Assembly: GCA_026413865.1 (NCBI GenBank)
Contig: JAOAKB010000012.1
Span: 1 to 37,339, forward strand
Direction: 5' to 3'
Length of the DNA: 37,339 nucleotides
Source: Nitrososphaeria archaeon
GTDB taxonomy: Archaea > Thermoproteota > Nitrososphaeria > JACIWG01
Positions 24,365 to 34,444 of this stretch are shown here, piece by piece. The notes under the pieces were generated by a model. That model was not told the DNA's origin. It ran no database searches and was given only the letters and a program-made list of their open reading frames with translations. The first letter of the stretch is position 1. The number at the start of each line of letters is the position of its first letter. A program made the translations under genes and the position numbers.

Positions 24365-25060
24365 ATGGAAATTTTTGTTGGAACCTCAGGCTGGTCATAT
24401 GATTGGAATATTGAGGGAACTCTATCTTGGTATGTTAAAAATTCTGGACTTAATTGTATAGAATTGAATGCAAGCTTCTACAGATTCCCATTTCCTAATC
24501 AGGTGAAATCTTGGACTTTAAAAGGCAAGAGTTTAAGATGGATTGTTAAAGTTAATCAGCTTATTACACATAAGTTTAAGTTTAATGAAAAGGCTTTTAC
24601 TCTATGGAAAAAGTTCGAGAATCTGTTTGAACCATTGGATGATGTTATCGACTTCTATCTTTTCCAACTACCTCCAATGCTTTCACCACAATATTCTAAA
24701 AAGTTGGAAGATTTTATTAAAAAATGTAAGTTAGGTACAAGATTCGCTTTAGAAGTTAGAAATATTAAATGGTTTAATGAAGAATGGGTTAAATGGGCTT
24801 CTGGATTAGGCATTACTTGGGTTAGTGTTGATTCACCAGAACACCCAAGAAAAATATTTTCGTCAAATGGAATAGTTTATGTCAGAATGCATGGTAGACA
24901 ATTCTGGTATTCACACTATTATGAGGATGAAGAACTTGAAGAAATCGGTAAAAATATTTTGAAGATTAAACCTTTGAAAGCCTATGTTTTATTTAATAAT
25001 AATACTAATATGCTTGAAAATGGGAGGAGAATGTTTGGTTTGTTAAAAAGGCTACTTTAG
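24365..25060 (+). CDS. DUF72 (YecE-like) protein
   Basis: FVGTSGWSYDWN, LNCIELNASFYRFP, RFALEVRNIKWFNEEW, YVRMHGR. Confidence 0.9.
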   Translation: MEIFVGTSGWSYDWNIEGTLSWYVKNSGLNCIELNASFYRFPFPNQVKSWTLKGKSLRWIVKVNQLITHKFKFNEKAFTLWKKFENLFEPLDDVIDFYLFQLPPMLSPQYSKKLEDFIKKCKLGTRFALEVRNIKWFNEEWVKWASGLGITWVSVDSPEHPRKIFSSNGIVYVRMHGRQFWYSHYYEDEELEEIGKNILKIKPLKAYVLFNNNTNMLENGRRMFGLLKRLL

Positions 25061-25516
25061 CATATCTAGTGGTAAGTTAACATCCTTTTGTATAAATGAG
25101 ATATGCTTCAATTTGCCATTTATTTGTATCATATGTTTTGTGGTTTTTGGAGGAAATCTCTTACCTTCAAGCGCATACAATATCACGGTTCTTTTGTCCA
25201 ACTGTACACTTTTCCAAGAATCTAAGATTATCATTGGACTATTATAGTCAACTAATAATGTTGGTACAAGCTTGCATCCAAGACTCTTAAGCACACTCAC
25301 ACGATGATGTCCATCTAAAATAGTGTAAGTATTTATGTCTGCTACAATGGGCTTTTTTATGACCCTATCTGCCTCAATAATCTTTCTCAGTTCTTCACAA
25401 TATTTTGTGTCTACGTCTTCATGGGCTTTAAGCAAGTCTATATTTACTAGTATTGGTTTTAATAATAAAAATGTGCTAGGTTCTGATATTTTATTAGAGA
25501 CCTTCTTATATGACAC
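25052..25516 (-). CDS. ParB/SerK-like protein, candidate free-serine kinase
   Basis: VADINTYTILDGHHRVSVLKSLGCKLVPTLLVDY: DGHHR motif of ParB/SerK family; 5 bp downstream of trpB2. Confidence 0.7.
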   Translation of the reverse strand: MSYKKVSNKISEPSTFLLLKPILVNIDLLKAHEDVDTKYCEELRKIIEADRVIKKPIVADINTYTILDGHHRVSVLKSLGCKLVPTLLVDYNSPMIILDSWKSVQLDKRTVILYALEGKRFPPKTTKHMIQINGKLKHISFIQKDVNLPLDMLK

Positions 25517-25521
25517 AATAT

Positions 25522-26892
25522 TTATTCCACCCTCGGAATAAGGGAAACATACTGTGATATAAGTTCTTCTGATGGTTCATAGTCTTTTAGGTTATTATAA
25601 ATCAAGTCTTCATACGCTTTCAAATCAAGGAGGCCATGCCCACTAAAATTAAATAATATTATTTTTTTCTCATTCTTCTTTTTTGCATCAAGCGCTAAGT
25701 CTATTACAGCCTTTATTGCATGCGAAGTTTCAGGTGCAGGAATAACCCCCTCTAATCTAGCAAAAAGTGCACCAGCTTGCATCACTTCAGTCTGATGATA
25801 TGCTCTATTTTCAATAAACCCGTTTTTTATGAGTAGACATAGTGATGGTGCCTTACCATGATATCTTAAACCTGCTGCATGAATAGGCGATATCGGAAAT
25901 TTACTTCCAACTGTGTACATTTTAAGCATAGGCGTCAAACCACCTGAATCACCAAAATCATATGTATATTTTCCTCTTGTAGTAGATGGAACAGCCTTAG
26001 GTTCTACAGCTATAAACTTTGTTTCGCTAGCACGCTTTAATTTATCTCTTAAAAATGGATAAGCTATACCCGAAAAATTGCTTCCACCACCAATACATCC
26101 TACAACATAATCAGGTGTTCTGTCTATGAGTTCCATCTGTTTTTTAGCTTCTAAACCTATTATTGTCTGATGGAGAAGCACATGATTTAGTACACTCCCA
26201 AGAGAATATTTTGCATCATCTTGCCCAAGTGCTACCTCAAGGGCTTCACTTATTGCAATGCCAAGACTTCCTGGATGTGATGGATCAGATGAAAGATAAC
26301 TTCTTCCAACGTTTGTTTTATCACTTGGGGAAGGATAGACTTTGGCACCAAAAAGCTCCATTATAACACGTCTATATGGTTTCTGTAGATATGAACTTCT
26401 TGTCATAAAAACAATCGTTTCAAGTGAGAAAAATGCTGAGGCTAGAGAAAGTGCTGAACCCCATTGTCCTGCACCAGTTTCTGTTGTAACCTTCTTAACA
26501 CCTTCTTTACAAAGATAATATGCTTGCGCTACAGCAGTATTTGTTTTATGACTTCCAGTTGGGCTAAGATCTTCACGTTTAAAATATATTTCTGCTGGTG
26601 TATCTAAGTATCTTTCTAGTCTTTTTGCTCTAAAAATCGGTGTAGGCCTTCCAAGAACATGGTATATTTCTTGAATTTCTTCTGGAATTTGTATATAATT
26701 TTCCATAGAAACCTCTTGTCTAATGCATTCTTTTGCAAATATTCTTTCTAAAACAGCTGGATTAACCGGATTTCCAGTTGATGGGTCAACTGGTGGAGGA
26801 AGAGGTTCAGGCAAATCTGGAATTATATTATACCAATATTTTGGCATCTCCTCTATGGGCAATATTATTTTATTATTCGAAATTTTATCCAT
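25522..26892 (-). CDS. trpB2: Tryptophan synthase beta chain, TrpB2 type
   Basis: [67 protein letters not shown]. Start at 26892 (MDKISNN) preferred; TATA-like TTTATATG lies about 25 nt upstream. Confidence 0.94.
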
Positions 26893-26928
26893 AGGTAAAC
26901 GTATTAAAATGCACATATAAATTCATTT

Positions 26929-26946
26929 ATGTACTTTTTAGTACAT
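26929..26946. promoter_or_regulatory. Palindrome ATGTAC-N6-GTACAT, candidate TRP-box-like operator
   Basis: Exact inverted repeat in the trpB2/regulator divergent intergenic region, just upstream of the trpB2 TATA-like element. Confidence 0.65.
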
Positions 26947-26954
26947 TTTTAGAA

Positions 26955-26976
26955 ATGTATAAGTATAACTATACAT
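26955..26976. promoter_or_regulatory. Palindrome ATGTATA-N8-TATACAT, candidate operator over the regulator promoter
   Basis: Exact 7-bp arms; contains AAGTATAACT about 25 nt before the ATG at 26991. Confidence 0.6.
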
Positions 26977-26990
26977 GAACATACTTGAAC

Positions 26991-27518
26991 ATGATAACAT
27001 GGCCCTTTAAAGGACTGGGAACAATTCTTGAAGAAGCTTCTAAAAGAAAAAAGGCTAGAGCGCTTCTTTTGAAAAAGATGCTTGAAACTGGATTAAGAGT
27101 GGATAAAAATGGAAGATTCTATTTTGATGACATTGAAGTCAGCGATACTGCTATAGCAAAATCTTTAGGAATAGATAGAAGAGTTGTTAAACAGACTGCA
27201 AACTATATACTTTCTGACCCAAACCTAGAGTACATTTTTACTCGTTTAAAGCCTGTTGCATTTTTTAAAGATGTCGCACACTATCTTGGTTTTACAGTGA
27301 TTGTGATAACGTCTTATCCAGAAAAGCCTGGAATAATTTCAGAAGTAACATCCATTATAGCTAAACATAAGCTTGTCATAAGAGAAGTTTTTGCAGAAGA
27401 CCCTGAACTTTTTGATGAACCAAAATTGACACTCATAATTGAAGGTGAAGTTCCATCAGAGGTTATTAGTGAGTTGCAGAGTATTAAAGTGGTTAAGAGT
27501 TTAACAATAATAAAGTAG
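26991..27518 (+). CDS. HTH + ACT-domain transcription regulator (TrpY-like)
   Basis: VSDTAIAKSLGIDRRVVKQTANYIL (HTH) and GFTVIVITSYPEKPGIISEVTSIIAKHKLVIREVFAEDP (ACT). Alternative TTG start at 26985. Confidence 0.82.
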   Translation: MITWPFKGLGTILEEASKRKKARALLLKKMLETGLRVDKNGRFYFDDIEVSDTAIAKSLGIDRRVVKQTANYILSDPNLEYIFTRLKPVAFFKDVAHYLGFTVIVITSYPEKPGIISEVTSIIAKHKLVIREVFAEDPELFDEPKLTLIIEGEVPSEVISELQSIKVVKSLTIIK

Positions 27519-33577: not shown

Positions 33578-33624
33578 TAGGATAGAAAAATATTTATTTC
33601 CAGAAATCAAATCTGATTGTTGAA

Positions 33625-33696
33625 GGTGGGGTGTCGGAGCGGCTACGAGTCCGCCTGCAGAGCGGATATACAGGGGTTCAAATCCCCTCCCCACCT
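33625..33696 (+). tRNA. tRNA-Cys(GCA)
   Basis: 7-bp acceptor GGTGGGG/CCCCACC, anticodon arm TCCGC-CTGCAGA-GCGGA, T arm AGGGG-TTCAAAT-CCCCT, discriminator T; no intron, no encoded CCA. Confidence 0.95.
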
Positions 33697-33769
33697 CATT
33701 AACAAAATTCACAGCAGAAATAATTTTAGAAATATAAAGCCTTTTAAGGTATTAAGGAACACACATGCT

Positions 33770-34444
33770 ATGATGAATAAAAAAGATGTTGATAATAAAA
33801 GTATTCGCGCACGTTTTGAAAACTATCCTAAGATAGTTAAGGAAATCATTAATTCATCAGATAATCTAGAGTTTTCCATACTTAATGTATTACATTTGTT
33901 ATCAAAAGAAAATCCTGATGAAGTGTATAGAGCTTGCAAAATTTTTTTGAACGCTTTAGGCGACTACTATATTGTAAATAGTGGGCACCTTGGATTATGT
34001 GACATGTGGTTAAAAGATACAGCATTTCCAGGTGACATTATAATCTACTCTGTACCCTCAAGATTAAAAACAAACGATCTAATCCAATATTTGGCAGTAA
34101 ATTTAGAAAATAATAGGACAATCATTGTGCATGCTAGAATAATTTCATTGTTAGAAAATAATTTAGTAAAGGTTAAAGACATATTCACACAGGAAGAGAA
34201 GATAATACCACAACTTCATATAATAGGAAAGGTTGTAAAGATAATTCCCTTTGGAAGTAATGAATGGAATGAACTCTATCCTAGGATAGGTTATGAAAGC
34301 AACGATATACACATAAGGCAAGTGATAGACGCTTATATTGGGAGCATAAGTGATCCAAAAAACAAGTATTACTCAAAAATGAGCAAAGAAGAAAAAGAGA
34401 GATTGCTTGATGAACTAAATTTACGCAAGGCACATTTTACCTAA
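33770..34444 (+). CDS. Hypothetical protein with S24/S26 signal-peptidase-like beta fold (tentative)
   Basis: FPGDIIIYSV...IVHARIISL...LHIIGKVVKIIPFG. ORF-track start at 33617 rejected because it runs through the tRNA. Confidence 0.6.
   Translation: MMNKKDVDNKSIRARFENYPKIVKEIINSSDNLEFSILNVLHLLSKENPDEVYRACKIFLNALGDYYIVNSGHLGLCDMWLKDTAFPGDIIIYSVPSRLKTNDLIQYLAVNLENNRTIIVHARIISLLENNLVKVKDIFTQEEKIIPQLHIIGKVVKIIPFGSNEWNELYPRIGYESNDIHIRQVIDAYIGSISDPKNKYYSKMSKEEKERLLDELNLRKAHFT

Follow-up and report, generated by a model that had tools for sequence, protein, structure and literature searches.

A palindromic box between the back-to-back promoters of trpY and trpB2 in a Nitrososphaeria archaeon recurs at the same arm spacing beside trpB2 in other genera. 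We propose that TrpY represses trpB2, the serK-like gene behind it and its own gene through this box (box B), probably with tryptophan as co-repressor, and that it governs indole salvage in this way; we put the probability of this reading at about 0.7. Within it, TrpY very likely binds box B and very probably switches trpB2 on and off. The analysis started from a stretch of 37,339 nucleotides (contig JAOAKB010000012.1), referred to here as the window, which belongs to a 1.45-Mb draft genome that is 77% complete.

The original prediction had described a TrpY-like HTH-ACT regulator divergent from trpB2, with two stacked palindromes on the promoters. The divergent arrangement is present, as are both palindromes (ATGTACTTTTTAGTACAT and ATGTATAAGTATAACTATACAT), with centres 28 bp apart, and their positions relative to both promoters hold (table 1). 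We moved the start of trpB2 from 26916 to 26892, because an in-frame TAA separates the two positions in the congener G003. The SerK-like gene shares the strand of trpB2, begins five bases after it and is probably co-transcribed with it. Elsewhere in the window, a 275-aa ORF without a Pfam match (33617-34444) overlaps a tRNA-Cys gene on the same strand (33625-33697); its true start probably lies further downstream.

Table 1. Features of the trpY-trpB2 locus, in window coordinates.
Feature	Positions	Strand	Remarks
trpY, HTH-ACT regulator	26985..27518	+	175-177 aa; start is ATG 26991 or in-frame TTG 26985
trpB2, TrpB-like PLP enzyme	25522..26892	-	TIGR01415 672 bits; revised start
Short SerK-like gene	25052..25516	-	154 aa; matches NF053625 and PDB 5x0b
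Operator box B (palindrome 1), ATGTAC-N6-GTACAT	26929..26946		GTAC cores at 26931-26934 and 26941-26944
Candidate second operator box C, ATGAAC-N6-GAACAT	26975..26992		at trpY start; 10/12 to box consensus
Weak candidate box A, ATGCAC-N6-ATTCAT	26909..26926		over trpB2 TATA element; 9/12; in 10-bp phase with box B
Palindrome 2, ATGTATA-N8-TATACAT	26955..26976		over trpY TATA element; probably incidental
TATA-like element of trpB2	26914..26921	-	by inspection; ~26 bp before start 26892
TATA-like element of trpY	26957..26964	+	by inspection; ~25-30 bp before start

The regulator matches NF053754 with 166 bits (E 7e-49; strict cut-off 180), and in the TrpY tree it falls among homologues from Thermoproteota. 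Its Pfam ACT match (E 1.5e-5) falls slightly under the cut-off, and the AlphaFold model (pLDDT 91) contains an HTH, with the recognition helix at residues 63-75, and an ACT domain. These results support the proposed protein family. A TrpY alignment was matched in 160 of the 398 genomes of the phylum that were sampled, some of them weakly, which contrasts with the statement in PMC6737238 that TrpY homologues are almost absent from Crenarchaeota genomes. A single origin of the trpB2-linked TrpYs was rejected, as the linkage is scattered on the TrpY tree.

The exact motif TGTAC-N6-GTACA occurs once in the host's draft genome, inside palindrome 1. The sole exact copies in the genomes G007, G020 and G026 are likewise located at trpB2 or in the region separating it from trpY, and exact boxes at other places in relatives' genomes are mostly intragenic. 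With no further exact box in the host genome, a wide TrpY regulon there was rejected. A 12/12 box match arises in shuffles of the region with P = 0.0004. In G003, box B differs at five of its six spacer bases and at one of its twelve arm bases.

The motif was fixed from the window first and then sought in other genomes. Boxes scoring 10 or 11 of 12 were found in six other genera of the class (Fisher p = 3e-10). A survey of the phylum and 40 further regions gave 44 divergent trpY-trpB2 pairs in all, out of 93 TrpY loci examined, and from these pairs we took 31 representatives outside the host genus, chosen to avoid near-copies. The contigs of named relatives include, among the matches listed, Geothermarchaeota, Thaumarchaeota, Bathyarchaeota, Brockarchaeota and Thermofilaceae MAGs, from which we would assign the host to the Thermoproteota of GTDB. 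TGTAC-N6-GTACA was present at a score of at least 8/10 in 22 of the 31 representatives, compared with 2.0 ± 1.2 in shuffles, and at a score of at least 9/10 in 11, compared with 0.1. Other arm spacings from 0 to 14 reached at most 10 of the 31, none of them near the count for N6; nine of the 31 pairs had no box at the threshold used. TrpY genes that are not divergent from trpB2 had a box upstream in 4 of 49 cases (these 49 include a few duplicate loci). Among bacterial trpB2 loci, 4 of 50 had the box, and we rejected them as its carriers.

The intergenic sequences that share the box at this fixed spacing are otherwise unlike each other. Such recurrence excludes, for palindrome 1, a chance origin in AT-rich promoter DNA, an account that does hold for palindrome 2 (below) and that we regard as extremely unlikely for the locus as a whole. 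Box B thus appears to be a conserved operator of trpB2, about as firmly as sequence can establish this, and the idea of a TRP-box-type operator kept together with the trpY-trpB2 pair was borne out by its recurrence in other genera.

The box is also found at trpB2 where TrpY is encoded elsewhere, in G007, G019 and G046, whose TrpY adjoins a gene resembling a thermosome subunit, and in Methanobrevibacter, with the same N6 spacing. This, together with repeated changes of the TrpY-trpB2 linkage on the TrpY tree, would be expected if another regulator, encoded elsewhere, acted on the box and the position of TrpY beside trpB2 had other reasons. We consider this highly improbable, since the genomes with a box at a remote trpB2, Methanobrevibacter included, still encode a TrpY, boxes often lie at the trpY start too, as autoregulation would predict, and the cores match TGTACA, which we take to be the TRP box consensus of Methanothermobacter. 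TrpY itself is the more probable reader of box B. A Methanobacteriaceae MAG has trpY divergent from a trpE-like gene (named by eye), with a 9/10 box in the region between them.

Exact GTAC cores were found 10 bp apart twelve times, compared with 0.07 expected. Degenerate cores showed spacing peaks at 10, 20, 30, 40 and 50 bp, and several promoters carry three or more phased cores. In the window, the two strong GTAC cores sit between the two TATA-like elements. This phasing would suit a dimer, or several dimers in a row, contacting a single face of the helix.

Second sites were less clear-cut. Box A is within chance when taken alone (P ~0.24). Box C has P ~0.04 alone and its arms are unchanged in G003; in many other genera, too, a box lies close to the start of trpY. 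It is probably a better second operator than palindrome 2, as a candidate weaker than box B. Palindrome 2 had been put forward as an equivalent operator, and this was not sustained: a perfect repeat with 7-bp arms arises in 25% of shuffles, one of its arm bases is altered in G003, the sister genus (G004) shows no counterpart and the spacing is not that of the family. Missing conservation and missing family spacing ruled it out as an equal operator, and it is probably incidental. The check suggested with the original prediction, conservation of the palindromes upstream of orthologous pairs, supported the first (22/31 pairs) and spoke against the second.

Of 97 TrpYs, 87 keep the pair R63-R64, with which the recognition helix begins. 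Six TrpYs carry Q63, all from family f6, in which trpB2 promoters have TGTAA-N6-ATACA-like sites or none. At the f6 loci L034, L037, L065 and L068, Q63 replaces R63 and the promoters have TGTAA/TGCAA-N6-ATACA-like repeats, not TGTAC-N6-GTACA. Regulator and operator may have changed together here; one lineage is too few for covariation.

Several other TrpY genes have different neighbours. At L143 (1842-3098 and the region upstream of its trpY), phased boxes separate trpY from a divergent gene for a periplasmic binding protein (PF13458), and the protein is a possible amino-acid uptake target of TrpY. L258, from a Methanomethylophilaceae MAG, has two phased 8/10 boxes and a trpY divergent from an ORF that by eye resembles an archaeal shikimate kinase. 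Other TrpY genes adjoin further conserved genes: a thermosome-like ORF (by eye) is the neighbour in families f4 and f8 (among L004, L005, L007, L008; L091, L094, L095, L099, L100), and an FKBP-type isomerase gene (PF00254 in L091) adjoins other TrpY genes of that locus set.

The trpB2 product exceeds the cut-off of 519 bits for TIGR01415 (TrpB2-type) and reaches 168 bits against 392 for TIGR00263 (trpB), so that by profile match it falls in the TrpB2 rather than the TrpB1 subgroup. In five genomes of the host family (f1), three of them 94-95% complete, TrpA and a chorismate-binding TrpE-type protein were not found and IGPS gave no match above cut-off; most f2 genomes likewise have no detected TrpA, IGPS or TrpE. 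Because of these absences, trpB2 most likely encodes an indole-salvage enzyme, and with the rest of the pathway apparently missing, the switch would control tryptophan salvage. Two congeners have neither trpY nor trpB2.

The protein encoded behind trpB2 matches NF053625 (244 positions) with 59 bits against 380, over 84 residues, and we call it SerK-like only, because it does not reach a full-length match. Its HE and DGHHR motifs, presumably the catalytic motifs of the SerK region, align with PDB 5x0b and are invariant in three f1 sequences; the structure model (pLDDT 38) was unusable. The trpB2-serK tandem is kept in G003 and G004, and the same order, a serK-like gene directly after trpB2, recurs in Bathyarchaeota and related genomes as well as in one MAG each of Pyrodictiaceae and Anaerolineales. 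The original prediction had included this gene in the trpB2 unit, and its recurrence beside trpB2 in several lineages agrees with that. SerK makes O-phosphoserine (PMC5120207) and TrpB2 enzymes use it (Busch et al. 2014, cited in PMC11917138), which the tandem would fit. The passages searched in two SerK papers, PMC5120207 among them, do not mention a tryptophan synthase or trpB2 context. Short SerK-like proteins of about 144-165 aa, without a Pfam match, form a subfamily distinct from the full-length type (window 25052-25516; G003:C22, G001:C298, G011:C25, G023:C157, G042:C43).

In the switch that we propose, a TrpY dimer or short oligomer would bind the two GTAC cores of box B, one helical turn apart and centrally placed between the TATA elements of the two divergent genes; box C at the trpY start is a probable weaker site. 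From there, TrpY would stand in the way of TBP/TFB both at the promoter of trpB2-serK and at that of trpY, most likely once its ACT domain has taken up tryptophan. TrpB2 would join scavenged indole to O-phosphoserine, and the SerK-like enzyme could provide the latter by acting on serine. We infer repression, and tryptophan as co-repressor, from one characterised relative, while TkTrpY (TK1227) of Thermococcus kodakarensis neither binds nor regulates its trp operon (PMC6737238); family membership consequently does not settle function. Three further points weigh against the proposed reading: the regulator's score under the strict family cut-off, the nine divergent pairs in which no box passed the threshold, and the incompleteness of the host genome.

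TrpY might instead bind the box and respond to a ligand other than tryptophan (phenylalanine, tyrosine, indole, serine or O-phosphoserine), or activate trpB2 from upstream of BRE/TATA. ACT domains bind various amino acids, the nearest solved folds to the regulator are ACT proteins binding serine or other amino acids, and among relatives one TrpY gene is divergent from the shikimate-kinase-like gene and another from the periplasmic binding protein gene. The position of the box upstream of the trpB2 TATA element is also compatible with activation. Yet the link between TrpY and trpB2 recurs across many lineages, and the one characterised TrpY noted above represses in response to tryptophan (PMC6737238), and so we consider these variants unlikely. 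Repression in response to tryptophan is the reading that we prefer.

More tentatively, and at somewhat below even odds, trpY-trpB2-serK may be a self-contained tryptophan-salvage module of archaea that have lost the biosynthetic pathway. SerK would make O-phosphoserine, TrpB2 would join it to scavenged indole, and TrpY would gate both through a 10-bp code of GTAC cores read partly by arginine 63, whose change to glutamine in f6 accompanies loss of the C of TGTAC. The tandem offers a testable physiological reason for the use of O-phosphoserine by TrpB2, a regulated trpB2 retained without the pathway lends concrete support to the idea of indole salvage, and TrpY targets can be predicted directly from sequence by the N6 spacing rule.

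The components have characterised counterparts. SerK (TK0378) is an ADP-dependent free serine kinase (PMC5120207). The window protein shares its ParB/SerK-type N-terminal region, the HE and DGHHR motifs and a C-terminal PKTTxH; unlike TK0378, it has 154 aa rather than about 242, its middle region is missing and its gene lies downstream of trpB2. The window trpB2 resembles the TrpB2 enzymes described by Busch et al. 2014 and Hettwer and Sterner 2002 (as cited in PMC11917138) in its match to TIGR01415, and differs from those systems in having no detected TrpA, IGPS or TrpE in the host family. TkTrpY belongs to the same protein family as the window regulator, and the Thermococcus genome examined has no box upstream of its TrpY genes.

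The closest counterpart is TrpY of Methanothermobacter thermautotrophicus, whose TRP boxes lie between trpY and trpEGCFBAD and for which repression is established (Xie and Reeve 2005, as related in PMC6737238). The trpY/trpE-like pair of the Methanobacteriaceae MAG has this same arrangement. The window regulator is of the same HTH-ACT family, with divergent promoters and GTAC-type boxes in the common promoter region. The target trpB2 is also shared: in Methanothermobacter, TrpY reportedly controls trpB2 (Karr et al. 2008). Differences from Methanothermobacter are that the divergent partner here is trpB2 and not the trp operon, that no other part of the pathway was detected in the host family, that a serK-like gene is attached, that the host belongs to another phylum, and that binding and ligand are predictions here. 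The kind of switch is already known from Methanothermobacter; what is new is its spread in Thermoproteota, its phased operator grammar and its stripped-down salvage setting.
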